A program made the position numbers and the translations under genes. A stretch of DNA of 64,000 nt from Utricularia gibba (lineage: Eukaryota > Streptophyta > Magnoliopsida > Lamiales > Lentibulariaceae): positions 2,542,001 to 2,606,000 of the forward strand of contig NEEC01000004.1 in NCBI GenBank assembly GCA_002189035.1. Direction: 5' to 3'. Within the stretch, counting starts at the first letter, position 1, and every line of letters begins with the position of its first letter. This document shows positions 7,301-63,676 of this stretch, in pieces. Under the pieces are notes generated by a model. The model made no database searches. It saw only the letters and a program-made list of their open reading frames with translations, and was not told where the DNA came from.

Positions 7301-8124
7301 TCTAGGTCCTAGAAGATTTTCCTTCGGTACAAATGCCATTCGAATGGTTGGTAGAGCTGGTTCCTGTGCTGAAGCCAAGGGCCTTTTCCATTGCTTCTTC
7401 TCATGCGGCCCATCCAAATCATGTACACTTAACTGTAAGTGTTGTCTCATGGATGACTCCATATAAGAGGAAACGCTCTGGTCTCTGCTCCTCTTGGCTT
7501 GCAAATATTGATCCTCGGGATGATAGTAAGTGAAATAATTCATTCTAGTGGCTACTGTCCCAACCTATTTTACAAGTTACATCTGACTGTGGACAGGAGT
7601 CCTTATACCAGCATGGTTCAGCAAAGGCTCTCTCCCATCCCCAGCACCATCACTTCCTCTCATTCTTGTTGGACCAGGGACAGGATGTGCTCCTTTCCAT
7701 GGGTTCGTAGAGGAGCGAGCGATGCAGAGCAGATCCATTCCCACTGCACCAATACTCTACTTTTTTGGGTGCCGAAGTGAGAACGATGACTTTCTATACA
7801 AAGCATTTTGGTTGACTCATTCACAGAAGGGGGAGTGCTTTCAGATGATAAGGGTGGGGGTTCCACGTAGCCTTCTCCAGGGATCAGCCGCAGAAAGTCT
7901 ATGTTCAGCACAAAATGAGAGAGCAAAGTGATAAAGTATGGAGCCTGCTGAGTCAGGGTGCTGCAGTATATGTTGCTGGGTCAGCAAATAAAATGCCGAG
8001 TGATGTCATGTCTGCGTTTGAAGAAATTGTCTCCACGAAAGCTGGCGTTTCCAAGGAAGATGCTTCACAATGGATCAGGGCACTGGAAAAATCTGGCAAC
8101 TATCATGTTGAAGCTTGGTGTTGA
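4376..8124 (+). CDS. ATR3: NADPH-dependent diflavin oxidoreductase 1 (ATR3/Tah18/NDOR1 type), 12 exons, two frameshifts in last exon
   Basis: This family passes electrons from NADPH through FAD and FMN to the Fe-S protein Dre2/anamorsin in cytosolic iron-sulfur assembly. Predicted exons are 4376-4525, 4637-4714, 4798-4902, 5121-5212, 5317-5501, 5696-5787, 6015-6083, 6198-6308, 6421-6546, 6973-7092, 7306-7525 and 7597-8124, about 625 aa, the family's usual length. An N-terminal flavodoxin module (LYASETGNA, VSTTGQGDNP, FGLGDSSY) is followed by the FAD part (RAFSIASS) and the NADPH part (VGPGTGCAPF, YFFGCRSENDDF). The C-terminus ends in VEAWC. The start is the ATG giving MAKEKIG, just before the first beta strand. 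As written, exon 12 shifts frame twice, at the 5-G runs 7829-7833 and 7856-7860. One extra G in each restores QKGGVLSDDKGGGF...AFSRDQ, which matches the family, so an assembly error is more likely than a dead gene. Confidence 0.92.
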
Positions 8125-8922
8125 ACCCACCGCACCGCACATCTACTCAGATGATTTCTGGTTGATCATCATGTTGAAGCTAGAGGGAGCCTTCATAGCA
8201 ATGTCACTAACGCCTTTTGGACTTCCATATTCATGTAGTAATGTTAAGCATGACAGGGTTGTGTTATTTGATTTTTTTTTTTTTCATCGAGCAGGTGAAT
8301 GTTTTTTAATTCAATTTTGTCATGATTAAATAAATAGGAAAACGATTTTTATTTATTTAAATAATATATTTGTTTTTATAATATAATAAAAAATTATTAA
8401 ACTCAATTCAATTTATTATAAAAATGATTCCATCTAAATCAATTTCGTTTAAGTTTCAAAACTGCGATCCATTGATCATTCAGAAATGATTAATTTTATT
8501 TACTATGTTTCTTGAAAGTGATTCCAAATTTAGAAACTATATGATAATTATATTAGTATAATAATATATATTATTATTAAATGAAATTATGTAATATTTT
8601 ATAATTTTTTAAATTTAATTTTTAATTGAATTAAATTAAAAATAAATATTCGCCATCATTTATTGAGAAATTAAATATTCCAAAACAAATTGTAATATAG
8701 AAATATTATTTTCTATGGGTGAAAAGTATTTGAAATGAATCGATGGAAAGTATGAAAGATTCAGAAGCCACATATTTATGAGTTATAAATAAATATAAAT
8801 AAAGTGCTTCAGTAGTGCACACAAATCACAAGCTATAAAATCATCCAAATTTCAACATTATTCATCGTATTCTACTGCTTTTAACAATCTTCTCTGCAGG
8901 CTGCGGGACTCCACTCCATGAC
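8125..8922. other. AT-rich spacer between convergent genes
   Basis: This holds the 3' UTRs of the diflavin reductase (plus) and the glycosyltransferase (minus). The middle is AT-rich with a run of about 16 T near 8271. No gene or mobile element is recognised. Confidence 0.5.
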
Positions 8923-10487
8923 TCAGGTTGCTCTTCCGGCAAGCAGCACTTCGTTTATCAGCCTGTTTAGATTCACCTCCGACGAACCACCCGGCGCCGC
9001 CGCGGCATCGGCCTTCCGCCTCCACTCAGCCGCCGTCTCCTTCATCTTGCGCCCTTTCTCTCCGGTCATAAGCTCCCTAACTTGCCTCTCCACCTCATCC
9101 CTCTTCACATTGCTATCGATCTCCATTCCGATCCCCCAATCCACACAACTGTACCTGCAATTCGTCTGCTGCTCTGCAAAAAACGGCCAGCAAATCATCG
9201 GGACGCCGCTGCTAATACTCTCCAACGTCGAATTCCATCCACAATGCGTCAGAAATCCTCCCACCGCCCTGTGCGTGAGCACCGCCTCCTGTGAGCACCA
9301 ACTTACCATTAAGCCCCTGTCCACCGTTTCCGCGGCAAACTCCTCCGGCAACAGCGCCGACTCACCAGAGACAATATCCGGTCGAATCACCCATAAAAAG
9401 GTATGCCCACTATTCGCCAACCCCCACGCGAACTCTGTTAGCTGCGCCGCCGTGACGACGGTGATGCTGCCGAAGTTAACATAAACAACCGATCCCGGTG
9501 CCTTGCCATCGAGCCATGAAATGCATTCCTGATCTTCCTTCCATAAACTAGACTCAATGGCGTTCACGGCATCATTTTCGGGAAGAGATTTCATCTTCGA
9601 ATTGAGCGGGCCAAGGGAATAAATCTTCGGCGGATAAAATTCCGACAACGCCCCCAGGCTTTCTTCCTCCAAGGCGTCAAATGTGTTGAAGATGATTGCG
9701 TTTGCACACCGAATTGCTTCGGTTTCTTGCAACACAAATTTTATCATGAACTCCTCGGGGTTCGTCGTTCGTAAGAACGTCGGCAAATCCCTTAGCCGGA
9801 GCAGTTTCTTGCTTCTCCACGCCGGAGCCAGCTCCACCTCCGTTTCCAGGTAACCATCGGTCACCTGTCCCATGTCTGCGACCACATTAATCACAAACAG
9901 TGACTGAGAACCAACATATTATGTAAAGAACAAATGGGTAAATTCTATGTAATACCTTTGAGAGGGATAACGCCGTTGTCGAGAAGGCGACGATATTGGA
10001 GGTACCCCAGCAACCCGCAAGCGCTAGCTGTCCATAGACATACCTCTGGCAACCGGAATCTCTCCGCCGCCTTGAGAGTAAAACTCATCACCGCATCGGA
10101 GACGATGCAGGTCACTGGCGGGACGCTCTTGTCGCTATTCAGGTCGAGGAGCAGAGCACAGAACGGCTCCAAGCAAGTTGTCGTCGTTGATTGGCACAGA
10201 GAAGGTACATCTTGGGTAACGTCAGCATCGGACGGTGGGAGCCCGTCCGGGATCGAAGCGAATCGGAAGTCCGGGAGGCCGGCGAGCGCGTCACTGCCGT
10301 GGGATTTGAGCAAGCGGCGGTGGTTGTATTCGGAGTTGACGAATGTGACGTGGAAGCCCCTGTGGTGAAGGAGCTTGGCGAGCTTCAACATGGGGTTTAT
10401 GTGCCCCTGCGCCGGGTACGGTACGCAGACGGCGTGCGGTTTCCCGCCGCCGGTGAGGACGGTGGCTGCAGGCGCGTAATGACCCAT
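8923..10487 (-). CDS. UDP-glycosyltransferase, UGT85A-like, two exons
   Basis: This is a family 1 glycosyltransferase that moves a sugar, usually glucose from UDP-glucose, onto small acceptors in the cytosol. Exons are 10487-9956 and 9875-8923, joined G|AC, giving 494 aa; the single intron at this place is typical of the UGT85 group. The N-terminal motif [11 protein letters not shown] carries the expected catalytic His (about residue 29), with an Asp partner in [10 protein letters not shown]. The 44-residue PSPG donor-binding box spans about 370-413 ([10 protein letters not shown], then [27 protein letters not shown]) and ends in Gln, which favours UDP-glucose. All key residues are present and the frame is open. 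The substrate cannot be read from sequence; UGT85 members include cytokinin, cyanohydrin and terpenoid glucosyltransferases. The coding region is much more GC-rich than its flanks. Confidence 0.93.
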
Positions 10488-12026
10488 AGTTATATAACCG
10501 ACAAACTAGAAGTGGTACCAAGAGAGTTGGATGTCTGTCTTATTCTGCCCTCAGGGAGCACAACTATAAATAAACACAGCCACAGGGATTTCAACAAGTT
10601 TATTTCACAAAATTCAACTCAAAGAAGAGGTCAGCGTTTTGCTACCGCCAAACCATGGTTGGAGTCGAGCGCCCTCTTTCTACTCTCCCCTGATATTCCA
10701 AGAATCAATAATAATCTAACCATGGTCAAGGAAGCTTAGCACGCAACCGTGACATGAACCTGAAATGGCAATATATTGTATTATTTTCATTGCGGCTCCG
10801 TCGTTTTTGGGTAGTGGTATAATATAAAGTAATTGATAAAAAGTATTTTCCTTTTTTCAACCCGGAAGTCAGCTTCCGCAGTGGAGTGATCAATTTGGAA
10901 AGGTAGAGGACCAATTTTGCAGGACGTAGCTAGCAACTGCTGCGCTGCTTCACCCAACCGACAGACACGTGGGTGAAGTCGGCATGGGTCCGGGTAGGCA
11001 AAGACTTAATGCAACAGCACACACCTCATCAATGAGCGGAGCGTGCATGCGGAGCGAAGAAATTGGGTGGGTACGTTGGATGGTTTGATCTCTGACGCCT
11101 GCCTGCTCCTGCTCCTGCTCCACCATATGATATGATTTGCCCAATCTAGGGTAGGGTAGGGTAGGGTCCTTATGTACGTACGCATCTTAAAGCAACACAA
11201 CACCAACCAAATTGACAAACCAAATTGATACTTGATTCTGCTTATTTTTATTCAATTGTAATATTAATGTTGCATTAAACATAATATTTTGGATTGTTAA
11301 AAGATGGAACCATCCGAAATATACAATCTTTACTAATGTTTAAGACATATTTAACCATTCTCATGGCATGTATAGCTGCTTCATAAGTTACACATGATTT
11401 TGAATTATCATTGTTGACCAAAGAATACAAAACATTACTTTACACGGGTGATTGGTTTTGTGTAATAATAATAAGAATGACAATGTCATAAACATATTTT
11501 GTTTCGAAATTGATAATGATTATTTTTTGTCATACATTTCATTAAAAACATATTTAACATTATTTAAATTTAAATTAAGTAAATTTACTATACATTTTTA
11601 ATTAATTTTAAATATATATGTTAATGATCATTCCTAAAAATTTATAAAATTTTTATTCAATTAATTTAAATAAAGTAATAAGAAACTTTTTCATTTGATG
11701 AAATCAAATGATGGAACATCAACACCAACGCACCTCATTGCGTATTGGGTTGTCAGCTGCCAAAGGTATTTCAGGATCTGATGTGATGTGCAAGGGAATG
11801 AATAGTTGAAGAACTACTATACAACTCATTCACTTCCAAATGAGTATGGCCGCTGAGGTTCTAGGACTCGGAGCGTGGAGATGACGCAACAGCATGAAAA
11901 GATGAGGACGCAAGCTGGGCAAGGGCCGGAAGCGAACCTCCTGCGTAGATGAACGAACATCAATAATCCAAAGATGACCACGCAAAGGTTAACTTAGACA
12001 AAGGTGCATGTCTAATCCATTTATAA
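10488..12026. other. Spacer: upstream of glycosyltransferase, then AT-rich DNA
   Basis: About 10.5-11.2 kb has balanced composition and should contain the glycosyltransferase promoter on the minus strand. A short GGGTA run (four units near 11147-11167) is present. From 11.2 to 11.7 kb it is AT-rich. 11.7-12.0 kb is the likely 3' UTR side of the small membrane protein gene. No further gene is recognised. Confidence 0.45.
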
Positions 12027-14338: not shown

Positions 14339-15307
14339 TTGAGCATGATAAGGAACGCGATTGGGGGGGTGAAGGATCAAGCATCAATTTGGAATGCAAA
14401 GATATGTAGCAAGTTGGAGCGGGGGCTAGAAATCAAAGTACTGAAAGCGACCAGCCATGAAGATACCCCCGCCCCAGAGAAATACTTGAGGGATATTCTC
14501 CGGATAACGTCACATTCCCATGACAATGTGACAACTTGTGTATCCTTGATATCCAAGAGGTTGAGGAAAACCCGTGACTGGATTGTGTCCCTCAAGTGTT
14601 TGATGCTCCTTCACCGGCTACTCAATGAGGGAGGTCACGTTCTCCGAGTGGAGATTCTATTTGCTTTTGGAAATGGAACCATGCCGCCGCTGAAATCTTC
14701 TGATGAAGCTCAGTCCAGCTCTTGGGACCATTCTACGTTTATCAAGACCTATGCAATGTACTTGCAAGAGAAGCTTGCATTCGCGGAAATAGAGCTTCGT
14801 AGGAATAATCGCAACTGCGGTGATGTGGGTGCCAAGTCAATGCAGGAGAATGCATCCATTTTGAAAAAGATGGAACATCTGCAAAGGCTTTTGGATAAGC
14901 TCTTGATATGTCGCCCTGCAGGATATGCAAAGAGCGAGCACATGATTTTGGTGGCAGTGTACACTATACTGAAGGAGAGCTTTCTTCTTTACACCGAAAC
15001 CAGGGCAACGCTGGGCCTTATCCTCGACAGGTTTTCTGATATGGACCATGTGTGCTGTGCTTTCGGCATTGAGTTGTATGTAATTGCTGAGAAACAGATG
15101 GAGGAGCTGGTTACGTTCCACAACTGGTGCAAGGATTTGGGTGTGGGCAGGTCTTGGGAGTATCCCAACGTAGAAAAGGTTGACAGAAATGCAATAACAA
15201 GGCTGCAACTCTTTCTCAAGGGTCGAGAGGTTAAGAGCAGCGAAGTTGAGGAGGAGGGAGATTTGGTTGAATTGAGGGAGGGGGAAGGTGCCCAATTGCA
15301 TTGTTAA
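14339..15307 (+). CDS. ANTH-domain clathrin assembly protein (AP180/CALM-like), intronless
   Basis: The 322-aa open frame is continuous. Plant AP180-like proteins bind PI(4,5)P2 through the ANTH domain and recruit clathrin, or retrieve SNAREs, during endocytosis. Residues about 25-150 form the first ANTH helices: KATSHEDTPAPEKYLRDIL contains the lipid-binding Lys cluster in reduced form, followed by LISKRLRKTRDWIVSLKCLMLLHRLLNEGG. The helical repeat continues to about residue 290 (FILKTYAMYLQEKL-like and LYVIAEKQMEELVTFHNWCKDLGVGRSWEYP). The tail is short, acidic and without NPF, DPF or clear clathrin-box motifs. This resembles the short single-exon group around At4g40080 rather than full AP180. 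The start at 14339 gives MSMIRNAIGGVKDQAS, the usual beginning of this group. Confidence 0.88.
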   Translation: MSMIRNAIGGVKDQASIWNAKICSKLERGLEIKVLKATSHEDTPAPEKYLRDILRITSHSHDNVTTCVSLISKRLRKTRDWIVSLKCLMLLHRLLNEGGHVLRVEILFAFGNGTMPPLKSSDEAQSSSWDHSTFIKTYAMYLQEKLAFAEIELRRNNRNCGDVGAKSMQENASILKKMEHLQRLLDKLLICRPAGYAKSEHMILVAVYTILKESFLLYTETRATLGLILDRFSDMDHVCCAFGIELYVIAEKQMEELVTFHNWCKDLGVGRSWEYPNVEKVDRNAITRLQLFLKGREVKSSEVEEEGDLVELREGEGAQLHC

Positions 15308-16506: not shown

Positions 16507-18728
16507 TCAATGGACAGCCTCAGATTTATGTGGTAAGGGGTTCAACTGCAGTCCCCTGTCTTTATATTTAAACAAAATATCTTGAGCTTCTTGATTTCTC
16601 TGAGCCTTGATAAACGAACCTATGAAATGACATGTTCGCACATCAGGCTTGCACCCATTAGCCTCCATAGAATAAAGCAACCGTAAAGCTTCAGCAAGCT
16701 TCCCAGATTCACAAAATGCGTTAATAAATGCAATATATGTGAAGTTATCTGGGCAAATTCCCATTGTTATCATGCATCTGAGAAGCCTCTGTGCCTCTGC
16801 AATCTTATGAACTTTGCAGTACATCTGTATTAGGGCATTGAAGGTGAAGACATCAGGCCTTATTCCATCAACTTGCATTTTTCTGAAGAGTTTAACTGCC
16901 TCAGAAACCTTCCTAGAAATGCATAATGCGCGGATCAAGGTATTATATATAACAGCATTCGGAGGTATTTCCCATGAAATCATTTCCAGAAAGCAGTCAA
17001 AAGCATCAGCAATCTGGTTTACTTGGGAAAGGACATCAATTATTGAACTGAAGGTGAACACATCTGGTTTAAAACCATGTTCTAATAGCATTAATAACAT
17101 CTCTCGCGCCTTAGTTGCATCCCTACAGTTGCAGTATCCCGAAATAAGGGTGTTAAAAGTCACAAGACTGGGCAAAAAATGACTTCCAGACATCATTTCT
17201 AAAGTTTTCATTGCTCTGTTCATCATTTTAGCTTTGCAGAAGCAATCAATCACCATGTTGTACGAGAACACACTTGCAATAAGCCCTTCCTTGAGAACCC
17301 AACTGAAATATAGATTTCCCTTTTCTTCTCTCCCTTCTCTGTACAAATTCTCAATAAGTGCTAGACGAGTACTCAAATTCAAATCTGCACCATGGCTAAT
17401 AAAAAATTCAAATATTTCACATTTTTCCTCCATATCTGACGCTTTCAGTAAGCATGTTATCACCATGTTAGATACTGAACTGTTAGGAACATACCCTAAG
17501 TTAAATGATGCCCTCAGAAACTTGATCAGGTGATCTGATGAAGAGTTGCAGCAAAGGCTATAAACAATGCTGTCATAGACTACTTTAGGAAGATTCTGCT
17601 CTTTATTCACCCATCCAAACAAGGACTCAAAGGCTTCACTGGAAGGCAGAGAATGAAAAACTCCATTGATTAATGATCGATACGTCGCATCATTTGGCCT
17701 TGCATCCCTTGCCTTCATTGTTTCCAGAATCCTGAAGGCTTCATCCACTCTCTTGGCACGGCAGTATCCATCTATCATAATGGTATAAGTGAAGACGTTA
17801 GGTGAGTAACCCAACCTTCCATTTGTTTGACAAGACGAGGAGCCTCATCAAGTACACTAGCCTTCAACACCCCATGAATCAAGATGTTGTATGTAAACCT
17901 ATCTCTGGCACAATTATCCACCTCCATTTGCTGAAACTTGAGGTAAGCCAAATCCAGTGAATTCGATTTTACAAGCCCATCTATCACGGCGTTGTAGAGT
18001 CTTGTGCTAGGTAGAATTCCCAAATAAGAAATTTGATCAAAAACTTCCGAACAATACTTAGCCAATCCCAGCCTTCCCCAACTACCTATCAAAATGCAGA
18101 GCAAGTCTTCGTTAAATCCGTATCCTGAACACCTGATATCTCTTACCAAGTCAGTAGACAACAAAACAGGCCCTTTCCTGAAAAGGACATCACTAAAAAC
18201 CCTTCTAATCGACTGATCCTTACAGAGTGACTCACTTACATTAAAAAGCCAAATGTAAAATCGTAAAACGGCTAACGCGTCCTCCTGCTTCTGCAAAATG
18301 CTAATCACAACTTGGGAATTCAAGCTGTGAACCCAAGACTTGAACTCATGGTTCAGCAGCAAATACCAATCTTTTTTTGACAGAATCTCGGTAATGCAAT
18401 GGTGGTCAATCGATTTTGACACAAACTTTTGCTGGGGAACAGAAAATCCTGCCTCACGCGTCGAAATTGATCCAAATTTCGAGCTTTTATTTTCAAGATT
18501 ACCTTTTGAAGCCCCAATACGATTCGGAAGAAGTTTTTCAGTGGATTTCGCCTTCAATAACCTCGAAATTTTCGGTCGCCTAGAACTCTGATCTATTCTC
18601 TGGAATTCAAATACCGTCTTTGAAGCCAAAGGTGAGAGCTTTCTCATGGGAGAAGGAAATACAGAGAAGAGTTCGCTGGCGCGCTGTCCGTGTTGGAAAG
18701 AGTCAGTCGAGCTTGGCATCCATCTCAC
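16507..18728 (-). CDS. PPR40: Pentatricopeptide repeat protein, PPR40 (At3g16890) orthologue, one frameshift
   Basis: This is a P-class PPR protein, about 740 aa if one frameshift is repaired. Arabidopsis PPR40 is mitochondrial, associates with complex III and affects ROS and stress responses. Two overlapping open frames (18728-17775 and 17814-16507) make one protein. The N-terminal half carries KKDWYLLLNHEFKSW, FRKGPVLLS, IGSWGRLGLAKYCSEVFDQI and STRLYNAVIDGLVKSNSLDL, closely matching my memory of PPR40. The second half begins GYSPNVFTYTIMIDGYCRAK and continues with about ten 35-residue repeats (e.g. IRPDVFTFNALIQMYCKVHK). The break falls at QMEG-GYSPN in the middle of a repeat. One additional G in the run at 17810-17812 restores the frame. 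The first ~80 residues are basic and Ser-rich, compatible with a mitochondrial presequence. No intron is needed, as usual for this family. Confidence 0.88.
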
Positions 18729-28150: not shown

Positions 28151-30598
28151 ATGGGGCGAATTTGGTTTTTTCCCTACATTCTAATTCTGGGATTGCTTCT
28201 ATTCTGTCTAATCGAATTGGAACCGTGCTCTGCTAGTATTCAGCGTTATGGTAAATTGAATCCAGGATTCAATGCATCTGAGATGCTGTATGTTGACAAC
28301 AAAGGCATCTTCCTCTTATCCAATAGTTCTGCTTTTGGGTTTGGTTTCATACAAACTCCCAATGACGTTACCCAGTTTCTACTAAGTGTGATTCACCAAA
28401 GTACCTCAACTGTTGTTTGGACTGCTAATAGAGGCCGTCCAGTTCAAAATTCAGATATGCTTTTTTTTGATACCACTGGAAACCTTTACTTGCAGCAATC
28501 GGCGTCTCATATATGGGCGACAAACACATCCAACATGGGAGTTTCGTCCATGGAATTGCTAGATTCTGGAAACCTGGTTCTGGTTGGGAATGATGGCAGT
28601 GTACTTTGGCAAAGTTTTGCCCATCCCACTAATACCCTTTTGTCGAAGCAATCATTTTCAGAGGGAATGAGACTTGTTAGTGACGTTGGAGCCAATAACC
28701 TGAGCTATTCCCTTGAGATTAGATCTGGGAGTATAATTCTTTCCGCTGGTTTCCAGCCACCGCAGCAGTACTGGTCTACGGCAAATGATCCTCGAATTCT
28801 TAAAGATAAAGAAGGTGGCTCGATAACATCTGCTCAGATTGTTGCCAATTCCTGGAGATTCTTCGATTCCACCAACACGTTTCTCTCTCAGTTTGTCTTT
28901 TCATCTGATACTAATACGACAGCTACTTGGGTTGCTGCTTTAAATAATGATGGTTCGATAAGTTTCATTATGCTTGGAGGAAGTTCATCAAGTCCTTCCA
29001 CCGTAACTATACCACGAAATGCATGTAGTAAGCTGGCCGCTTGCGGTCCTGCCTCTGTATGTAGTTCTCAAACCCAATGCCAGTGTCCGCCAGCTCTCCC
29101 CTCATGCAGGAATATAAGTTTCCCTTCATGCCATAATAGAGAAGCTCATAAGCTTGTGATTGGTGCATATGATATTAGTTATTCACCTCTGTTATTTGTA
29201 GCCCCCATCAGCAAAACTACTTTGGAGGGTTGCAGATCCTCTTGCTTGAAGAACTGTTCTTGTGGTGCTATGTTTTTTCAAAACAGTTCAGGAAATTGCT
29301 ATTTTTTCAATGAGGTTGGAAGCATGGAGCAATCCAGCAGTAGTGATTCCTATGTGTCCTACATCAAGATCTCTGATAATGCAAGTATTAGAGGACGGAA
29401 GGCTACTAAAGGTCCCTTGGTTGTGATCATCGTAGTCGTTGTTGTGACGGTATTAGTTGTGATTGTGCTGCTTTTAGCGGGAATTCGTTTTTACAGGAAG
29501 AGTAGGATGGAGCCAGATACAGTAAATGATAGCTCAGAGGAGGATGGTTTCTTGGAAGGCATATCAGGGATGCCAATTCGCTTCAGTTACAAAGACCTTG
29601 AGGTTGCAACAAAAAACTTCAGCAAAATACTGGGACGAGGAGGCTTTGGCACAGTTTACCACGGTACGCTCCCCGATGAAACACAGGTGGCTGTGAAGAA
29701 ACTCGAAGGAATTGGTCAGGGGAGGAAACAATTTAGAGCCGAGGTGGGCACAATCGGTAGCATCCACCATTTTCATCTCGTGAAACTTAGAGGATTCTGT
29801 TCTGAGGGCAGTCATCGGCTTCTTGCCTATGAATACATGGCTAACGGTTCGTTAGACAACTGGCTTTTCAAGAAGGAACCAGGAGACTTCATCCTGGACT
29901 GGGAAACGAGGTACAACATTGCCCTCGGTACTGCAAAAGGCTTAGCTTATCTCCATGAAGACTGCGAAGCAAAGATAGTTCACTGTGATATAAAGCCCGA
30001 AAACGTTCTTCTTGATGATCGTTTCGTGGCAAAAGTTTCAGACTTTGGACTCGCTAAGCTTATGACCAAGGAGCAGAGCCATGTTTTTACTGACTTTAGA
30101 GGAACAAGGGGGTACCTTGCACCTGAGTGGATCACAAACTGTGCGATTTCAGAAAAGAGTGATGTTTATAGCTATGGGATGGTTCTGCTGGAACTGGTCG
30201 GTGGACGGAAGAACTATGAGGCCTTGGAAGTTTCAGAAAAATCTCATTTCCCATCGTATGCTTTCAAGATGATGGAAGAAGGGAAGATGAGGGAGATTCT
30301 TGATTATAAACTCAAGGTAAGTGAAGAAGATGAAAGGGTTGAAATAGCCATCAAGGTGGCCTTGTGGTGCATACAAGACGATATGTACCTCCGGCCAGCG
30401 ATGACAAAAGTAGTGCAAATGCTGGAAGGGTTGTGCCCGGTCCCTCAGCCACCAGGAAGCTCTCCTCTGGCATCCCGATTGTACTCCAGCTTTTTCAAGG
30501 TAAGCACAGATGGAGGAACAACTCCTTCAGGCGCCGTCCCCTCGGATTGTAACAGTCATACATACGTCTCTGCGTGTCGGCTTTCAGGTCCAAGGTAA
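28151..30598 (+). CDS. G-type lectin S-receptor-like Ser/Thr kinase, SD2-5 type, intronless
   Basis: This is an 815-aa plasma-membrane receptor kinase in one exon. A signal peptide covers about residues 1-29. The bulb-type mannose-binding lectin region (about 45-165) holds VVWTANRGRPV, LLDSGNLVLVG and LWQSFAHPTNTLL. An EGF-like Cys cluster (about 292-320) and a PAN/apple-like region (about 330-408; CRSSCLKNCSCGAMFF) follow. The membrane helix is at about 421-446. The kinase spans about 494-765 with GRGGFGTVYHG, catalytic Lys in VAVKK (516), HCDIKPENVLL (611-621), DFGLAKL and GTRGYLAPEW. Cys precedes the catalytic Asp (HCD), so it is a non-RD kinase, a class linked to immune-type signalling. 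Domain order and the lack of introns match Arabidopsis SD2-5 (At4g32300). Ligand unknown. The frame is intact. Confidence 0.93.
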   Translation: MGRIWFFPYILILGLLLFCLIELEPCSASIQRYGKLNPGFNASEMLYVDNKGIFLLSNSSAFGFGFIQTPNDVTQFLLSVIHQSTSTVVWTANRGRPVQNSDMLFFDTTGNLYLQQSASHIWATNTSNMGVSSMELLDSGNLVLVGNDGSVLWQSFAHPTNTLLSKQSFSEGMRLVSDVGANNLSYSLEIRSGSIILSAGFQPPQQYWSTANDPRILKDKEGGSITSAQIVANSWRFFDSTNTFLSQFVFSSDTNTTATWVAALNNDGSISFIMLGGSSSSPSTVTIPRNACSKLAACGPASVCSSQTQCQCPPALPSCRNISFPSCHNREAHKLVIGAYDISYSPLLFVAPISKTTLEGCRSSCLKNCSCGAMFFQNSSGNCYFFNEVGSMEQSSSSDSYVSYIKISDNASIRGRKATKGPLVVIIVVVVVTVLVVIVLLLAGIRFYRKSRMEPDTVNDSSEEDGFLEGISGMPIRFSYKDLEVATKNFSKILGRGGFGTVYHGTLPDETQVAVKKLEGIGQGRKQFRAEVGTIGSIHHFHLVKLRGFCSEGSHRLLAYEYMANGSLDNWLFKKEPGDFILDWETRYNIALGTAKGLAYLHEDCEAKIVHCDIKPENVLLDDRFVAKVSDFGLAKLMTKEQSHVFTDFRGTRGYLAPEWITNCAISEKSDVYSYGMVLLELVGGRKNYEALEVSEKSHFPSYAFKMMEEGKMREILDYKLKVSEEDERVEIAIKVALWCIQDDMYLRPAMTKVVQMLEGLCPVPQPPGSSPLASRLYSSFFKVSTDGGTTPSGAVPSDCNSHTYVSACRLSGPR

Positions 30599-42830: not shown

Positions 42831-43125
42831 AAGTAATTAATATTTATCCTTTTCGGTTTATTGGTGCATTTTCTTTTTCCGATCCTCAGTTTTTAATGGG
42901 TTTCTATATTTCATAATAAGTTTTTTAAATGCTCCTCTCGAATATGTGACATCTTATTGTTATGCGATATTGCAATTCCCCTTTCCCTTTTGAGGGTATA
43001 TTTGTTTATCATAATATTGTTATGTTTGTTAAAAATTTCGATATCCCTATATTTGTATGATTTGTTTGAGTTGAATATTTTATATAAATATTCTAAAGAT
43101 GATTGGAGCAAACATTACTTGAACT
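42831..43125. other. AT-rich spacer
   Basis: No feature recognised between the tRNA gene and the solo LTR at 43126. Confidence 0.5.
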
Positions 43126-44288
43126 TGATAAGTGATTTTGTGTCATTTATATTTATGCTTTTTAGGACTCCCTTAGATGAGTTTTGCATTCTTTTTATTT
43201 CATTTTTTTTATGTTTTTAAAAGAATTTTATATCTTTCATATCACTTTGATCTTTTTGGAGGTAAAGTGTGTTTTGTGATTTTTCAAGACGAATTTGGAA
43301 TAATTTGGAGGATTTTCAAACTACTTTGATGGAGGCTAAGATTTGATCTATCCAAAGATGAAGACTCGGTCAAAGATTCTCGGATAAGATAAGATTCGCA
43401 TCTTATCTTGGAAAACTTAGAAGATTCGGATAGAAGATTTGATGTGAGCCCATCAAGGAAACCCGACAAATCCCCACCATTATATAAAGATCCAAATGCG
43501 AAAACCCTAAGAGGGGGGGTCGAAGTGGTAGACGACTAGAGAGTCAAATTAGGGTTTAGAGTCGAGTCTAGCATGTTTTGGATGTCTTCCCTTTCGTTTT
43601 TCATCAACTTTTGTTGTTTAGAGTCAAACATGCACGTGTGAACGCTTGCGGTTGAAGATCTGCTGTGAAGCCTTGCTTGCGCAAGTTCTGCGCGTGTGAC
43701 TGTCTTACTATGTTTTCCAGTGTTTAATTTGAGGTCTGATTCTATTTTTCGCAATGTTTTCTTTATCAACGTGATCTTTAGTATCATATAGCCATAAGGG
43801 AATATGGGAGAATCAAAGGTTGGCCTCAAGTATCTAAGGAGAAGGATCAATCGAACATCGTTGGTAAGACACATTCTATCTAATCCGTTTGCGAGATGTG
43901 AGGTGTAGAGGTTAGATTTGGATGTGGGGAAAACATAGGTTATCACAAGAGATGAAATGGCTCTGTGGCGTGGTTGATTCCATAATCCCACAAAACAAGG
44001 GACAGTACTATAACGGTCATCGAGTAGCACTACTTTAGAATAACACCTCCAAAGTTTGCGAAAGTAGGTCAGTTCTCAAGGTTTGCACACACGTAAAGGC
44101 AAGTTTCAAATAGGATGGATCCTAAATCCAAGACCACTTTTCTTATTGTCTTCAAAACCCAATCTTTCTTTTGCTTTTAATCTTTCTAACTCTTTGTTTT
44201 GAAAAGAATATTCCAATAACAATTCCCCGTAGATACGATCTTATTTTATTATTTCGACGGTTTCTATACAATTGCAGAATTATCATCA
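43126..44288. mobile_element. Solo LTR, TGATAAGTG family, copy A
   Basis: A 1163-bp unit starts TGATAAGTGATTTTGTG and ends GCAGAATTATCATCA. It is flanked by GAACT (43121-43125) and GAACG (44289-44293), a 5-bp duplication with one change. It shares most of its length with 54749-55871 and contains an inner palindrome AAGATAAGAT-TCGC-ATCTTATCTT (about 43385-43410). A run of GGGGGGG at about 43514 and a CCCTAA telobox word precede what may be the transcribed R region. No internal coding region adjoins it. Confidence 0.88.
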
Positions 44289-44751: not shown

Positions 44752-45084
44752 CCTACACAACTAGCCATGGAAGGAACTTCACCATTTGAACGCGGGAACC
44801 ATATTTCACCAATACATTTTTCGGACAGAATTATTAGCCGAGTGACTACTGTCAATGCATTCGGTTTCACTTCTAAATGACAAGTACAAAAATCGTGAAC
44901 AAACGGACTGGGCCATAAAACTTGCTGGTGCGAACACTAATTTAAGCTACACTTTCAAAATGAAACAAGAGAAGCCATGTCCCATGGAATTCATTAGAAG
45001 AGCAGACAAACTGCAAAAAGGTAACTGTGAGTCAGAGCAATGGACTCACCAGCAAATTGCATTTGGATAAATATGTATAAGCCA
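44752..45084. other. Spacer, 3' side of eIF3l gene
   Basis: Open frame 44855-45070 matches nothing known. This is probably the eIF3l 3' UTR and flank. Confidence 0.45.
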
Positions 45085-47340
45085 CTACTCCAGCTTCACC
45101 CTGTCCACCTCGGTCATGATTCCTTCAAGCTGAAAGAAGACGAGGAATCAGGTATCATGAAACATGATGTAATAAAAAAGCCATCATACATACCTTGACG
45201 ATCTGGCGCAAAAAGAAGTCACCATATTGTTTTGCTGGTTTGGATTCAGCAACATGAATTATATCCTTTTGATATCCAGAAAAAAAACAAATGTATGAGG
45301 GGCTAAAAACGAGGGTGGCAGAACAAACCAAGCAGGAGACACGCAATACAAAAACTTACTTCATCAACATAGAAATCAATGTCTGCATTGGAGGTGATTT
45401 TTCCGTCTGAATCAATAGCATGCGTCTTGTGCTTGTATGTCAGCAAAATTGTTCTGTAGGGCATAAAACTGTTTTCAGGACCAGCAGTGCATGGTGGGGA
45501 AGGGAAAACAAGTCTGGAATGTGGTAGGAGAGAACCTCAATGTAGTCTCGTTGACTTCCAAGTACGAAGCAAGCTTTGCAAGAGAAATTGTAGAGTACAC
45601 TTTCAGAAAGGTTCTAACACCAGATAGCAGTTGTTGCTGTTTCACTTCATAAAGAAACAGCTTCAACTGTAGTCTATAAGCATCCTGACAGTTCACATTT
45701 TTAACAACCCATTAAACATTGAACAATTGAGTGTTACAAATGGAACGGCCAAAAGGGCCAATTCATGTAGCTTAACGTACCTGGTTGTAATTCACAAGTG
45801 GTTCCTCAAAGCTGGGTGCCGATGGAGTGATGAACTTAGGGCAAGCATAAGAGAACAGTTCATCGTACAAGGCAAATGCCTCCTCGTCAAATCTCTGCAT
45901 TCTTGTCATTTTCTCTCCATATTTCTCCCGAAGCTGTGAACTTACAATCTCATCGACAAGCTTCACTTGAGGACAGAGTGAAAGACAGATAGCAAGCAAG
46001 GCATACATCTGCTCATTCTTCTTTAATATATGTTCATACTGAGGGGACTTCTGATGATACTGTTTAATCTTGTAAACATAAAGAAGTATTTTATTGAATT
46101 CCCGGATTGCTTCTGCATACCTACAAAATGTTACAGAAACACAGAAATGCAACATGTCACCATATTCCAACTCCTGACAGAAAGAAAGTTTAAGACCAAC
46201 ATCAAAAGAAAACGGTGCATTACCTCCGCATCATAAGATTAGCGAATCCATAATGATACGTAGTAGTTATGTAGCTTCCAATCACAACAGTGTACACGCC
46301 TTGCTGACTAATATCAATGGGAAGTAAGCACTTCAGTCCAGTGTGATAATCACCCAACAAGCAGTGCACTCTGAGCAGCCCTATCATACTGTAGTAACCC
46401 AAGACCTTCAGTACATTACTTCCACCATCATAATCATATCCATCATTAGCAGTAAACTGTTCAAGCCCCTCCTTTTCCTGCTCCAAAATCTGAAGAATCA
46501 TCGACTTATCTACAAGTGCTTGCAAGTAACTGAGGACACCATAAACATTCCAGGCCTGAAACCAAAAGGGAACTTTTGATATGCTGCTCATCCCTCATTC
46601 CAAATATGAAATATGACCGAGTTATTAAGAATACCTGACTAAAGTCCCTCAGAAGTGCAATCTCCTGCTCTGTCTTGTTTTTCATCTTTGCACGGTACTG
46701 GCAGAACGACTGGAACTGGTATACAAACTCATCAACCATATCCCACAGCCACTGATTGGGCAATTGCATATTGACAACCCCATGAAGCACAACCTAAAAA
46801 ATTGGAGAGAAGATATCGATATTGCGAATTCAATCATCATCCAATCCAGACCCCGTTAATAAATAGGACATAGGATGTCGAAAAGGCGTGAAATGATTGA
46901 AGATTTCAAACTGACATTCACAAAAGAAAGCCCAGACTGACATTCAAAAAAGAAAAAAAACCCTGCAACAAAACTCTGACCTGAAAGAGATTGCAGTAAT
47001 TATCCCATGAATCTATACGCTGGTGCATTGTAGGAGAAAGCCTAGCATACAAGTGCCTGAACCACATCTCACGATACAACAAGCAGAAGACATGGTCGTT
47101 ATCGACGTAGGGTGCCACTGCTTCAACGGAAGGCCACGGTGTGTCCTTGAAAAACCTGTCACTGATGCTGTGAAAGGAGGTCTCGTACATCTGATAGATA
47201 TCGTACACGTTCTTATCCCGAATGTGGCGGTACATGTGAGCCACGAAGGACTTCACCGAATCCGGCACGTAGTTGGGGTCGTAACCAAGAGCACCGGAGT
47301 CGCCTGATAGAACCTGCTCTGAATCGTACGACGCCTCCAT
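45085..47340 (-). CDS. EIF3L: Eukaryotic translation initiation factor 3 subunit L (eIF3l), eight exons
   Basis: The predicted protein is 516 aa from exons 47340-46981, 46793-46635, 46555-46224, 46120-45781, 45684-45536, 45453-45360, 45265-45194 and 45129-45085, all with GT-AG borders and matching phases. eIF3l is a PCI-domain subunit of the eIF3 scaffold that loads the 40S ribosome. Typical stretches are VPDSVKSFVAHMYRHIRDKN, YEMSFHSIS-like YETSFHSISDRFFK, LPNQWLWDMVDEFVYQFQSF, FTANDGYDYDGGSNVLKVLG, YHYGFANLMMRRYAEAIREF and, in the PCI end, RTFLKVYSTISLAKLASYLE plus VAESKPAKQYGDFFLRQIVK. The start gives MEASYDSEQVL; an upstream in-frame Met would add 35 residues of non-conserved sequence. 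The frame is intact. Length and content match plant eIF3l. Confidence 0.96.
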
Positions 47341-53420: not shown

Positions 53421-53429
53421 GTTAAATTA

Positions 53430-54425: not shown

Positions 54426-54748
54426 GTGACAATTTATTTTTATTTTTTTGTATTTTTTAACTAGTGATTAGTTTTTCTTAAAAAAAATTTTTTAACTTTG
54501 CTTGTATTTATCAAAACTAATTCCAAACCTAGATAAAGGAGGAGGAAAAACTTTGTTACCATAACAAAGTGTTTAATAAATTACTTAAATAAATGTTCAT
54601 GTTGATTATGTGAGTGTGCATTTTTTCTTCATATTACTTTAGTGCTTTGTTTTTTTCCACTTTAATAGATGCCTTAACTTAGCTACTGATATTGAGAAGT
54701 AGAAGATTTGTTTTGTTGTGTGTTTAGATTGGAGGATTTGTTCAGTAT
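54426..54748. other. AT-rich spacer
   Basis: No feature recognised between the hAT relic and the solo LTR. Confidence 0.5.
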
Positions 54749-55871
54749 TGATAAGTGATTTTATGTCACTTATATTTGTGGTTTTAAGAACTCTCTTAAA
54801 TGAGTTTTGCATTCTTTTTATCCCACTTTTTTTATGTTTTTAGAAGAATTTTATATCTTTCATACCATTTTGATCTTTTTGGAGGGAAAGTATATTTTGT
54901 GATTTTTCATGACGAATTTGGAATAATTTGGAGGATTTTCGAATTACTTTGATGGAGTCTAAGATTTGATCTATCCGGAGATGAAGACTCGGTCAAAGAT
55001 TCTCGGATAAGATAAGATTTGCATCTTATCTTGGAAAACTTGGATCTCATCCTAGAAGATTTGTATCAAATCTTAGAAGATTCGGATAGAAGATTTGATG
55101 TGAGCCCATCAAGGAAACCCGACAAATCCCCACCATTATATAAAGATTCAAACGCGAAAACCCTAAGGGGGGGGGGGTCGAAGTGGTAGACGACTAGAGA
55201 GGCAAATTAGGGTTTAGAGTCGAGTCTAGCATGTTTTGGATTCCTTTCCTTTCGTTTTTCATCAACTTTTGCTATTTAGAGTCAAGCATGCGCGTGATAA
55301 CGTTTGCGGCTGAGGATCTGCTGTGAAGCCTTGTTTGCGCAAGTTCTGCGCGTGTGACTGTCTTACCATATAGCCTTAAGGGAATGTGGGAGAATCAAAG
55401 GTTGGCCTCAGGTACTTAAGGAGAAGGACTCAATCGGACATTATTGATAAGATACATTCTATCTAATCCGTCTGCGAGGTGTGAGGTGTAGGGGTTAGAT
55501 TTGGATGTGGGGAAAACATGGGTTATCACAAGAGGTGAAATGGCTCTGGTGGTGTGGTTGATTCCATAATCCCACAAAACAAGGGACAGTACTATAACGG
55601 TCACCGAGTAGCACTACTTTAGAATAACACCCCAAAGCTTGCGCAAGTAGGTCAGTTCTCAAGGTTTGCACACACGCAAGGGCAAGTTTCAAGTAAGGTA
55701 GATCTTAAATCCAAGGTCACTTTTATTATTGTCTTCAAAACCCAATTTTTCTTTTACTTTTAATCTTTATAACTCTTTGTTTTGAAAAGAATATTCCAAT
55801 AACAATTCTCTGTAGATACGATCCTATTTTATTATTTCGACGGTTTCTATGCACTTGCAGAATTACCATCA
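54749..55871. mobile_element. Solo LTR, TGATAAGTG family, copy B, TSD AGTAT
   Basis: A 1123-bp unit starts TGATAAGTGATTTTATG and ends GCAGAATTACCATCA with a perfect 5-bp duplication AGTAT (54744-54748 and 55872-55876). Compared with copy A it has about 37 extra bases (a duplicated AGAAGATTxxxATC block near 55040-55080) and lacks about 90 bases near 55365. An 11-G run is at 55167-55177. Confidence 0.92.
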
Positions 55872-55876
55872 AGTAT

Positions 55877-56740
55877 GTGAAGACTTTAAGCAACTGGTAT
55901 CATTTCTACAAAAGCTTTTTAGTTGTTTTGTTTTGTTACGTGTTTAGATTAAAAAATTAGATCTTTTTTTGATTTGGTTTGCAGGTGGCACAGCAGATGA
56001 GATTAAAATAGCAAATAATATTTTGAGGTAAAATGCTTTTATGTTGACCAGATCAACCCACATTAAACACGACTTGCCACATTAAACTGTCAAAGATTGA
56101 CCCATGATGATTCGTGGACCATTGACGTGGGTCGTACCTGTATCCATGCAGACCCTACCCCTGCCCAACTCTCTATTTATTTTATTCATAACAATGCTTT
56201 TTAATATGGTAAAATCCCGACAATAGTTTTCTATTCATTGCATTCATCCTTGATGCTTAAGCTGCTATGTTAATTCTCATTTTATACTTTCTCTCATTAA
56301 TAATCAATGTAAGATTCGTATAAGATGGTAATTTCACCATTCCTTGATAGAACCCTAGTTAACTATAGTAAATTTGACTCTTTTTTTACCACATTGCACA
56401 TTGACCAGCATCACAGAATGTGTCAAACGAAAAAAAAAACGAACTTATTTGAATGTGCAAGGAAACAAAACGAGTTCAAATATTGATGCTCTTGTTTGTT
56501 TATCATTAAAAAAAAAAAAAAGGTTCAAACCATCCGTGCCTATTATTAGTGACATCGGCTGCATATGGGCCACATTTCGTACATAAAAAGTTGTTTGAAA
56601 CGTGAATCTGCATATAAAGAGTTTCTAAAAGGTGGATGCTTTGTTTTAGTATGAAATTTCTGTTCAAAGCTCCAAATGTTTTATGAGCTCCTGAGGGGAA
56701 AAAGTGATTCTTCAAATTTGTGTTCCTTTTGGAAACGGAA
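55877..56740. other. Spacer, upstream of DnaJ gene
   Basis: AT-rich; contains two A-runs and presumably the DnaJ promoter. No coding or repeat feature is recognised. Confidence 0.45.
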
Positions 56741-58143
56741 ATGGGCGTGGATTATTATAATATTCTGAAGGTGGGAAGGGGGGCGACCGATGATGATCTA
56801 AAGAAATCATACAGAAAACTGGCAATGAAATGGCATCCTGATAAAAATCCCATCAACAAGAATGAAGCAGAGGCCAAATTTAAGCAGATTTCTGAAGCCT
56901 ATGAGGTATTTACCAACATCAACTAAATCAAAAATTCAAACATCCTTTTTACATTCCAACGTGGTTTGTCATGCCATTTTTAATCATACATGTGCTCATG
57001 TCCTCCTCCTGTGTGTACATCTATATATGTATCCACCTCTTCTATTGAGAAATGAAAACTGCGTTCGTTTTTTCGTATGGAGTTTTCCATTTCTCTCATT
57101 TTATTCTTGGATGTGCATCATATCTTTCCAGGTATTGAGTGATCCTGAGAAAAGGAAAATCTATGACCAACGCGGGGAAGAAGGCCTCAAAGAGATGCCA
57201 CCTCCCAGTTCCACAAATTGCTTCAATCCACGAAACGCGGAGGACATTTTCGCAGAGTTCTTTGGGAGTAGCCCTTTCGAGTTCAAACCGACAGGAGTTG
57301 GTCGATCGGCAAGGTTTCAGTCTGATAATGATGGAATCAATCTTCTAAAGAAGCCACCACCAGTGGAGACTAAATTGCTTTGCAGCCTTGAAGAGCTTTA
57401 CACAGGATGCATAAGAAAAATGCGAATATCTCGAAAAGTGGTTGATTCAAAGGGGTACGTGTATAAGTTTCTTCTTAATATGAATGAGAGTAAGAACTTA
57501 TGGAAGCCAAAATTTTGTCTTAACTTTCATGATACAATCAGGGTGATCCATGAAAGAAAAACCATGATTCCTTAGTGAAACATATAAAGTGTACATGTTT
57601 GAGATCCTACTGGTTGTGTTTGGACTTAGCTGAAGGGCATTGATCACTTGTAACTACGTATCATTCACTTCAACAGCTAATGAAGGTGTTCTTGTGTGAA
57701 GGCTACTAGTTACAGAGACCGAAGTGCTGACCATTGATGTAAAGCCTGGGTGGAAGAAGGGAACGAAGATAACGTTCCAAGACAAAGGAAACCAACAAAT
57801 GAATCAGCTTCCCCAAGATCTGGTGTTCATCGTCGATGAGAAGCCTCATAAAACATACCAAAGAGATGGAAATGACTTGATCATGAGCTATCAAATCAAA
57901 TTAGCAGAAGCCATCGGAGGCCTGAGTGTCAATGTCACCACACTCGACAAGCGCCAACTTTCAATACCAATCAAAGAAATTGTGAGATCCGGGCACCAGC
58001 TTGTTGTACCAGGAGAAGGAATGCCGATCGCTAAGGAGCCTGTAAATAAGGGTGATATTAGAGTTATTTTTGAGGTGAGGTTCCCGACGAGACTGACACA
58101 AGAGCAGCAAGAAGTAATAAAGAGAGTTATGGGAGGTGCTTGA
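56741..58143 (+). CDS. DnaJ homologue, subfamily B (type II Hsp40), three exons
   Basis: This is an Hsp70 co-chaperone of the cytosol/nucleus. Exons are 56741-56905, 57132-57454 and 57702-58143, about 309 aa. The J domain (1-67) carries [14 protein letters not shown] with the HPD motif at 32-34. A short Pro/Ser, Gly-poor linker holds [18 protein letters not shown]. The C-terminal client-binding region holds [60 protein letters not shown] and VPGEGMPI. There is no zinc finger, so type II, like DNAJB1/DNAJB13. Exon 2 ends GG^GTACGT; the acceptor for exon 3 that keeps frame is GTGAAG^GC at 57702, giving [12 protein letters not shown]. It has weak context, so this border is the least certain. Start chosen at MGVDYYNIL; an in-frame Met seven codons upstream (56720) is less typical. 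Confidence 0.9.
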
Positions 58144-58829: not shown

Positions 58830-59213
58830 GGGTGCGTTTGGTTCATGGAATAAAGAGGGATAATTAAATGGTATATTGTTATCCGATGTTTGGTTACGAA
58901 TAAGAAATTAATTATCCATTACTGTATGGATTTCTTATCACACTAAAATATAGAATAAAATAATTAAGGGTTATTAGGTGGTATTTTTTAATCCCATCCA
59001 ACAATACCATAAATGTCCTTTGTTTTTTTTTTATAGAAAACCCAATTCAGAAAAATAGATATATTTTCGTTATTTTAACTATACAAACAACTATCTTATC
59101 CCAATTATTACAACATAAACCAAACATATCAAAATACATTCTCATCTAATCCTAACTCACTATCTTACTTAATTTTATCTTGGAATAACTTATCCCACGA
59201 ACCAAACGCACCC
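58830..59213. mobile_element. PIF/Harbinger-like MITE
   Basis: The left end GGGTGCGTTTGGTTCATGG and complement of the right end GGGTGCGTTTGGTTCGTGG form a nearly perfect terminal inverted repeat, extended by TTATxCC-type words. The right flank is TAA; the left flank is TAAA, so the expected 3-bp duplication is present with one extra A. 384 bp, no coding capacity. It shares its first 14 bases with the MITE at 21619. Confidence 0.85.
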
Positions 59214-60292
59214 TAATCAATTCTTTGATATGCTAGTTTATAACAAGTGTGTTTACCAAATTTATGTATAAAGTTACATAAATACCATTGATGTCTATAT
59301 ATATTGTGTATAAAATCATATTGTTTTAAACCCATAAATTGATAATTTTTGCTTGTGGCTATGCTTACTAATCACATCTACTTCGAATTTATCTTACTTT
59401 GCATCAAAATATGTGAGTAGTGATCAATTGCTTATAGACTATAATTAAAAGATGTTTCATAAAAACTATAACATTACAAGTGGAAATATGTAAAATAACC
59501 AATGAATAACCAAGAATTTATGCTCAAGTTTTTGAAGTAAATTTTATCAATTTCAAGAAACTAAAAGCATCTAACCATGATGGCTATCACAAATATAACC
59601 AAAAATGGAAAAATAAAAATCTTCTTCCTTATTATAGCAGAGAAGAATAACAAAAGTTGCAATTCCAAGTTCAAGTTTGAAAAGGTTAAAAGATATCAAT
59701 TCTCTATTGAAAGTTTTATTTAATTTGTATCAATAAGTACATCTAATTTCTCTATTTCTATTTCTTCATTCTTTTTATCTTCTTTGTGCTTTTAGCTTCC
59801 TCATTATTGCAATCAATCTTTTTAATATCATCCATTGAGCGTTGAGAAATGTAAATTCTCTCGGCCCATATCATCATCTAATCGATCAGATAAAACAGCA
59901 AAATAATTGAGATGTTAGATCAAAATACAATGATTTCTTCCTTTTCTTATGTCATAAACCTTTCTTGAATAGCATAACTATTGACTACATTTCCTTCCAT
60001 TCTGATGTGTATATTTAAGCACTCCCACCAAAACCACATTTGACATGAAACTGCTTGCAGTTTCTTCATACTTTTGATTAATTTAAATTTGCCATTCCAT
60101 GAACTCCATTCACATCACCTTCACCTTCTACAACAAAACTGTAAACATAGTCCTCAACCTCAACCCTATAGCTGGAATCCCTCCCTGGTTTGAAGGTTTT
60201 CCAGGACTGGTGTTCCTTCGCATACAGAGTGAGGAGCGATGAACTAAGCCAGCAGAGACTCGCATCGGTTACCAGCTACTGGACTTTGAAAA
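59214..60292. other. AT-rich spacer, 3' flank of CSLD gene
   Basis: No coding signal. The last ~200 bases are the presumed CSLD 3' UTR (minus strand). Confidence 0.5.
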
Positions 60293-63200
60293 TCAGAACT
60301 GAATTTGGTCGCCGTCGGAGCCCCTAGCGCCGCCCTGAGGTGGACTGATGACAACCCAGAGCAATGAAACAGTTATGGAGATGAGCCCAGACCAGACGTA
60401 GATGATGGTAGGGACTCTTCCCCTTCTCCCCATCAGTCCTTTGGCAAAGGGATACATATGAGCAAGCACCCAAAGGCTGAAGAAAGAGCCACCAAACAGC
60501 TTGCTCCACTCGGGAATCACACTGTATATCGTCCTCGAGAATCCAATCACCAAAGCGACCAAGTTTGTCACGATGATGAACAGCGGCATGATGAATAGGC
60601 CCGTCCATTTCACGACATACAGGTCCGCGTAGATGTCATCCTCATCTTCGGCTGCGGATTTTGAGGTCAGGGTGAAGGAAATCTCAATTCCAGCGATGAC
60701 TTTCAGAAGCCCCTGGATAACGGCAACAAGGTGAGCGCTGGAGCCTCCAATTACCCAGAACTGCTCGTTTCTCCAGTGCTCTTCGAGTGCGATTCCGGAC
60801 CATTTCACCTCCAGAAGCGAGATGAAGATCAAGGTGACGGTGATGGTGAGAAGGTATAAGAGAAATTGGATGTCCAGGGATTGAACTATGAATTGGCCGG
60901 AGAAGAGAGATAGCGCCGGTAGAAAGCAGTAGACGACGAGGAAGATTGAGGTGAAGGGATAGATTCCGACGTTAAGATATGCCACTCGCTGCAAGAATTT
61001 GAGGCGGTTGGTGGCCAGCAGAGCATTGTTGCGGGAGAAGAAGATCTCAACGGAGCCGGTGGCCCATCGGAGAACCTGATGGAGACGATCTGTCAAGTTG
61101 ATTGGTGCCGTACCTCGAAATGCGTCACGCTTCGTTATGCAGTACACTGACCGCCACCCCCTGTTATGCATTCTATAACCCGTCACCACATCTTCTGTCA
61201 CAGACCCGTAAATCCAACCGATTCTATCTCCCCACTCTGTGTTATCCTCATACCTGATGGTTTCCAACGATTGGATAAGTACTAGCACTAGATTGTGTGT
61301 TCTATTTTCCAAGAAGAACGTACCAGCAAGAAATGACGGCGATGGCCTCGGCAGCGGTGGGGGCGTCGAGAGGAGCTCGAGGTGCCAAAAGAGCACCTGG
61401 AGGCCGGCCATTCTTGACTGAGAAATGATCGGCAAGTGGGCGGCCTTGGAACTCCGCCACAGCAATTGATTCATTGAACATGGTGGAATTACCAAACTTC
61501 TTAGGAAGGTTCAGGTCCGGGTGACCAGGGTTCAATGGTTCCTCTTCACCAGATCGCCGTTGCTGAAAATCCTTTGCCCGGGACTTGTATTGCCCGAATA
61601 CACCTAAATACTCATTCGCACGCGGTGGAAGAAAACCGTACAGTGCATATCGTCTAAACATGCAGCCAGTGCCGACGTAAACTGGTCCCTGAAGACCATC
61701 AAGAGCTCTCATATTCCCTGTTTGTGAAAAAAGATGAGTCACTCCCTGTTAGCGATGAGATGTATCTTGAACTTATGCTTCTTTTTCTGGTTCATACCAT
61801 CAAAAAACACGGTGTTATGGTTAGCATATCGATCCGAAGGATCAATACCCTCGAATCTCTGAGGGAACTGTATGTAGCAAATGCGATCTCCGCCTCTGTC
61901 CATCATGTAACAGATGCCTTCTCTGATGGCCATTGAGTTGTAGACATAGTGATCACAATCCAAGTTTAAAATGAAGGGTCCATTTGACAGGATAGCCGAA
62001 GCTCTAACCAAAGCATTCATCGCCCCTGCCTTCTTATTGTGGTCGTAAGACTTGCGTTTCTCACGCGAAACATAAGCGAACATGGGAATCCGAATATCTA
62101 TACCCGTGAAGTCGAGTCTACCTTCATCAGGTCCGCCCAAGACTGCTTCCATCTCCGGCACTTTGCTCATTATCTACTAACATCTTAGTGATCAGAAGGA
62201 TGATCTGATAGTCACAAACACACGCACTCAGAGAAATAGTATTTGGTACCTGTAAGATCCCAGCATGGTCGCCCTTGAAGTGATCAGGAATAGGAGTGAA
62301 CCAAGTCCCCGGCCAATGGGTTCCGTCGGCCATCCATGTAGCCTTGGGGGTCTCCATCTTATGATCCGGAGGTATAACACCGTTATTCTTCTCCTTAACA
62401 AGCCTCTTCTCCTGCATCTCTTCGTTCCTGTTATACATGTCGCATCGTTTCTTTATGACCTCCGGTAGACCGTTGATTCGAACCTTGAATTCGTCATACT
62501 CCCTCTTAATCCACCGTCGGTCCTTTACAAAGTCTGGCTTCTTCTTGTTCTTTGTTGGGTCGGTCTTCTGGTTGAAGTAGCTATCTGGATTCCTCGGCTC
62601 AATGTCATGCTTTCTACAGAATGGCACCCACACCTGTTTCCAGGCATGGTCTTCCATTGTTCATGAATTCATAAACAGAGAGACAGACATGCTTGGTTCG
62701 TAAAAAGTTACCTCAGCAAACTTGACGGCTTCAGCCATGGCCTCGAACGTGAGAATGGCGCCGCCGTCGTCGGAAATATAGACAGAGAGTTTCTCCACCG
62801 GATACTGCACTGCAAGAATAGATAAAATGGTGTTGGCCGTGACGAGAGGCGGCTCTTTTTCCGGATCCGCAGTCGATATGAACACATCCACTCCGGGAAG
62901 GTCTGATCTCCCGGTCGGATTCGACGGACTCGGGATCTCGAACTTTTCCTTGAGTGCAGACAAATCTGCTGACCGATTTATGGGATTGAATTTGGGGAGA
63001 ATGTCAAGCAGCCAGGAGAAGGCGAACCAGAGCTCGCATACAATAGACATTCCCCAAAGCCACATGGCTTCATGATTCGGATTCGTCACCCGCCATGTCA
63101 AGAACAGAGCCAGAGTTATCATTCGAATCATAATCAAGACTCTGTAGGGACTAATGACGCTGCCGGGGACTTGAACCTTTCTGGTGAGCGGTTTCCATGG

Positions 63201-63676
63201 CTTATCCATGAAATCCTGCATACTCATCCCGATTCATGATCGAAGGCATCACCGTCATCCTCCCAGTACGCGTTGCCGATTCCGTACCTGCCTTTCGTTT
63301 CGAAAAGATAGCGATTGTGATCGAAATCTTGGGTTTGGCTTCGTAGAAGCATCGATTTATTGTTATTGTTGTCGTTTTTCAATGTGGATGACGATGATGA
63401 TGATGATTCAGAGCGGGATCGACCAGGTCCTCGATACGTCGACGTTCCATCGGGTTGATTGTCGGGAGTGGGAGGCATCATGACGGTGTAGTTGATGTAA
63501 TCGTTGTGGGCAGAGGAAGAGTCCCCCGGAGCGTCGTGTTCCTCGTCACGAGAGAGGCTGACGATGCGGCCGCTGGAAGTTCTGCGGGAGAATTTGACGG
63601 ATTGAGCGGAAGGGCGGTCGTGTTCACCACCGGCCGTGGAAGCGGAAGGGCGGCGGGTGGTGGATGATGTTGCCAT
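60293..63676 (-). CDS. Cellulose synthase-like protein D (CSLD), five exons, lacks N-terminal zinc finger, one frameshift
   Basis: This is a family GT2 polysaccharide synthase of Golgi/plasma membrane; CSLDs make beta-1,4-glucan or mannan-type wall polymer in tip growth and cell plates. Exons are 63676-62712, 62633-62250, 62173-61798, 61717-61324 and 61253-60293, about 1026 aa. The N-terminus has [35 protein letters not shown] and [20 protein letters not shown]. Two membrane helices precede the catalytic core with [32 protein letters not shown] and QVLRW (D, DxD, D, QxxRW). About six helices follow. The RING-like Cys cluster that normally lies between PPTPDNQP and FDHNR in CSLDs is absent (linker is a Ser/Asn tract), making the N-terminus about 100 residues short. 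At 63228-63230 the frame breaks; one extra G joins [19 protein letters not shown]. The start gives [11 protein letters not shown]. Confidence 0.92.

Follow-up and report, generated by a model that had tools for sequence, protein, structure and literature searches.

The four frameshifts that interrupt three genes in the analysed stretch of Utricularia gibba DNA (64,000 nucleotides, hereafter the window) are almost certainly consensus errors of the assembly, arising from long-read under-calling of G/C runs, and not mutations of the plant. Frame breaks sampled across the assembly were nearly always losses of a single base, lay preferentially in runs of G or C, and became more frequent as these runs lengthened. 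They were spread over many contigs and six unrelated gene families, essential genes included. Under-calling of G/C homopolymers of the PacBio/Quiver type is an already known artefact, and the useful result is its extent in this assembly.

Frame breaks and intact genes in the window

Eight conserved genes were recognisable in the window, three with a frameshift and five without, and the gene content is that of a flowering plant. The first-pass annotation had reported four frameshifts in three genes on both strands, each a one-base loss in a G/C run, and three-frame translation, homology and stop codons confirmed them at the same positions and with the same run lengths. All four were net -1, two in a diflavin reductase gene and one each in a PPR (pentatricopeptide repeat) gene and a CSLD5-like gene, and all four sites were G/C runs, with lengths as read of 5, 5, 3, and 3.

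The ATR3/TAH18-like NADPH-dependent diflavin reductase gene, which contains introns, lies on the forward strand at 4378..8124 (the start was set by eye and is approximate), and was recognised by PF00175 and by matches to the P450-reductase family flanking both breaks. Both are within the last (3') exon. The first, at 7829..7833 (GGGGG as read, -1), was placed by three-frame translation and flanking homology, and the second, at 7856..7860 (GGGGG as read, GGTGGGGGTT, a further -1), by three-frame translation, with the C-terminal part in the third frame. Up to about 7832, one frame matches P450 reductases in their NADPH-binding domain (E 2e-14); a brief stretch between the breaks is readable in the second frame; and from 7861 to the natural stop, the third frame matches the C-terminus of P450 reductases (E 1e-17). 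These frames imply two successive -1 shifts, each at a run read as five G; if homology alone is used, the TT beside the second GGGGG would be an admissible alternative site.

The PPR gene occupies 16507..18728 on the reverse strand as two overlapping ORFs, each with PF13041 repeats. Its net -1 break, at 17810..17812 (minus-strand GGG, plus-strand CCC, as read), was recognised because the repeat motif crosses frames: the change of frame falls inside a PPR repeat, and repeats are present in the frames on either side. The cellulose-synthase-like gene of CSLD5 type (60293..63676, reverse strand) contains four introns of the GT-AG type and, close to its N-terminus, a single frame break; PF03552 was matched in five of its six ORF pieces. 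This break, also net -1, lies at 63228..63230 (minus-strand GGG, plus-strand CCC, as read). Stop codons in both frames suffice to place one -1 event between about 63224 and 63236, and the only run within these limits is 63228-63230. Four other interruptions of this gene, at 62.7, 62.2, 61.8, and 61.3 kb, were considered as frameshifts and rejected, as their GT...AG ends and restored frame identify them as introns. The exact base positions given for the four breaks are best estimates, and the second is the least certain.

No frameshift was found in the five other recognisable conserved genes of the window. A UGT85-type glycosyltransferase gene (8923..10487, reverse strand; PF00201) is intact with one intron, recognised by its GT...AG junction; the interruption at 9.9 kb was rejected as a frameshift on account of these ends and the restored frame. 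The ANTH-domain gene of the clathrin assembly type (14339..15307, forward strand; PF07651) and an SD-type lectin receptor kinase gene (28151..30598, forward strand; 815 aa) are each a single unbroken ORF. In the genes for eIF3 subunit L (44900..47340, ends approximate, reverse strand; PF10255) and a class-B DnaJ protein (56720..58143, start approximate, forward strand; PF01556), frames show that the exons join across introns. Run-length counts over the whole window did not reveal any clear shortage of long G/C runs, relative to an expectation that was crude. The window also carries a dispersed repeat of about 1.15 kb, with direct copies at 43125-44288 and 54748-55871 that are 91-96% identical in pieces, and a shorter inverted relative at 75-177.

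The presence of G/C runs at all four breaks of this single window is suggestive of a systematic pattern; together with the assembly-wide sample, the pattern is statistically firm.

Spectrum and run-length dependence across the assembly

The assembly examined (100,091,633 bases in 516 contigs) was sampled by gene family, with searches for GRAS, KCS, UGT, subtilase, BAHD, and HSP70 genes, and the excised loci were aligned to intact paralogues with a frameshift- and intron-aware aligner. For each break, the DNA interval in which the frame must switch was delimited, and its homopolymers were compared with those of all equal-width stretches of the same coding DNA. GRAS loci were sampled as found, both intact and broken, and so provide a usable rate; the other families were sampled via broken members, and inform the spectrum but not the rate. 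Calls of +1 that proved to be deletions in the reference copy were removed. Apparent breaks in L041, L045, L048, and several KCS and BAHD loci turned out to be introns and were not counted. The KCS search also revealed that, on the contig that holds the window, at least eight genes of KCS type (FAE1/CUT1) are clustered within 50 kb (C413:4947230-4997561), some of them with stops.

On the large contigs, 35 of 36 breaks from the six families were net -1 (binomial p 1e-9), a count that leaves out the pseudogene-like locus L052 as well as L017, in which an apparent break falls in an A-run at the very N-terminal edge and is probably in the 5' UTR. The sole exception, L036, can also be explained by two nearby -1 events. 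When 39 breaks were considered, L017 included, the switch interval held a G/C run of at least 3 in 29 (9.8 expected) and of at least 4 in 18 (2.8 expected), and none of 100,000 simulations attained the observed count for either threshold. A/T runs of at least 3 were not enriched in the switch intervals of these 39 breaks (10 observed, 12.5 expected). A few breaks were at runs of 1-2 or had no clear run (L047, L051, L067, L074). The frame 3' of each sampled break was conserved, and aligned nonsense codons were nearly absent outside L043 and L052.

These features bear directly on a rival explanation, in which the three window genes are true pseudogenes of recent origin and the plant's known loss of genes following whole-genome duplication provides the setting; we consider it very improbable. 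Many duplicate genes have been lost in U. gibba (PMC6982007), and a few of the sampled loci do look decayed, such as the GRAS locus L052 (C244:2104800-2106800), which has in-frame stops and +1 shifts and is likely a real pseudogene. Decay would, however, also yield insertions, nonsense changes and slips in A/T runs, and would require several HSP70 genes to be non-functional. What was found was neither a mixture of lesions nor relaxed constraint downstream, but a nearly uniform -1 sign with conserved frames past the breaks. The view of the first-pass annotation, that the breaks are too uniform for independent pseudogenization, is upheld by this larger sample.

The only family from which a rate could be derived was GRAS, for which 13 of all 38 loci sampled (57.7 kb of coding DNA, 50% G+C) were broken. 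Among runs of at least 3, 12 of 1,138 G/C runs were affected versus 1 of 1,629 A/T runs (p 2e-4). Taking the true length of an affected run as the observed length plus one, the rate of loss in G/C runs was 0.1% at length 3, 0.4% at length 4 (with three further ties), 8% at length 5, 20% at length 6, and 4 of 4 at length 7. The shape of this curve is that of a measurement error, though the counts are small, and it argues against pseudogenes. A tabulation of frameshifts by homopolymer base and length had been proposed earlier as a check, and when carried out on conserved families it gave an excess at G/C runs outside the window that rises with length.

It could also be supposed that the short runs are real alleles, with G/C runs slipping in the plant and the assembler picking the broken haplotype. 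Redundant contigs that differ by substitutions do indicate some heterozygosity, but slippage would lengthen runs as well as shorten them, and would affect A/T runs, neither of which was observed in coding DNA. A third of GRAS genes would, in addition, need a broken allele, and this explanation is extremely improbable. The probability that the plant makes use of the breaks as programmed frameshifts is smaller still, and close to nil. Homopolymer runs are typical sites of ribosomal slippage, but the positions of the breaks, like the families that carry them, are unrelated, and the breaks are missing from close paralogues and have no slippery motif in common.

Probable origin of the errors and consequences for annotation

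With consensus error as the preferred explanation, the proposed mechanism is that the long-read consensus would drop one base from a G or C run, with a frequency that increases with run length, and that a run shortened in this way inside a coding exon would shift the frame. PacBio continuous long reads, assembled with HGAP, are the probable source of the assembly, which would have been polished with Quiver from those reads alone, so that no independent data would have restored the missing bases. The real genes are presumably intact.

The first-pass annotation had attributed the pattern to either long-read or flow-based data. The long-read part fits better, and a flow-based origin is less likely. 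Data from 454 and Ion Torrent instruments resemble the present case in that miscalled run lengths create false frameshifts, but flow chemistry under-calls A/T runs as well, whereas in the present sample equally long A/T runs are spared. Long reads are preferred for this reason, and because the contigs are multi-megabase, reaching 8 Mb. A long-read assembly of U. gibba of about 101 Mb has been deposited as NEEC01000001-NEEC01000518 (PMC6982007), and a review lists the U. gibba assembly as produced with HGAP from 88x SMRT coverage, with a contig N50 of 3.4 Mb (PMC5793159).

Similar residual errors have been described in bacteria. After HGAP and Quiver, the indels remaining in Streptomyces albus SM254 fell 'nearly all' in homopolymers of G or C (PMC4832174), and, as proposed here, they were single-base indels that survived self-polishing and produced false frameshifts. 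They differ in having been revealed and fixed by Illumina data, whereas the present case concerns a plant genome for which the assembly sequence alone was used. In Enterococcus faecium ATCC 700221, single-base homopolymer deletions persisted after three rounds of Quiver, and were, like those reported here, deletions and not insertions; this genome is bacterial, and the available text of that report does not specify G/C versus A/T for its deletions (PMC4888979). The Quiver consensus likewise failed at a run of nine guanines in the tal genes of Xanthomonas, giving apparent frameshifts at G homopolymers (PMC4853030), although that run is longer than those affected here (about 4-7). The pattern in U. 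gibba matches these published residual errors of Quiver in sign, base, and context.

This assembly appears to serve widely as a reference in work on genome miniaturisation and gene loss. The warning of the first-pass annotation that many genes may be missed or split is borne out by the size of the problem, with 3 of 8 genes broken in the window and about a third in the only family fully surveyed. If a similar fraction of genes in families such as GRAS is falsely frameshifted, automatic annotation would break them up, cut them short or leave them out, and the numbers of gene losses and pseudogenes derived from this assembly would be inflated. The bias is non-random, as it affects genes with long G/C runs, and it can be corrected with short reads.

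HSP70 loci and redundant contigs

In three HSP70 loci that are otherwise well conserved, the frame breaks at a G/C run, and two of these loci align over their full length, with high scores, to intact HSP70s of the cytosolic type. The separately assembled loci L059 (C241) and L060 (C304) are 99.6% identical over 4.5 kb, and the HSP70 frame break is identical in the two contigs, at a GGGGG run. Such a shared break is expected either from a systematic error or from a real mutation. It is unlikely that a minority of the breaks is real, for example this one or those lacking a run; if it were so, the assembly would contain recent gene losses alongside errors, and filtering by run context would hide these losses.

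Several small contigs duplicate parts of large ones (L022/L023 in C316/C412; L031/L043/L054 in C422/C414/C416), and are probably allelic or redundant. Beside contig ends, the near-identical pair L022/L023 differs by 1 substitution versus 10 indels, and the near-identical pair L043/L054 by 0 substitutions versus 13 indels. A longer comparison of C316 with C412 gave 65 substitutions and mixed indels, including some in A/T runs of 8-11; it is in part allelic, and so does not isolate G/C errors. Because real allelic differences are present both there and between C241 and C304, redundant contig pairs are only partly informative as a measure of error. Outside genes, the errors may extend to long A/T runs. 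Ribosomal DNA could not be used as an internal standard because a search of the assembly for 5.8S rRNA gave no match; the rDNA may be unassembled or have been missed.

Two further features of the contigs were observed. In the duplicated stretches, indels cluster toward contig ends. The sizes of C1, C2, C505, C409, and C507 (8,500,000; 6,192,500; 3,452,500; 2,492,500; and 642,500 bases) are exact multiples of 2,500 bases, as if they had been cut in fixed bins.
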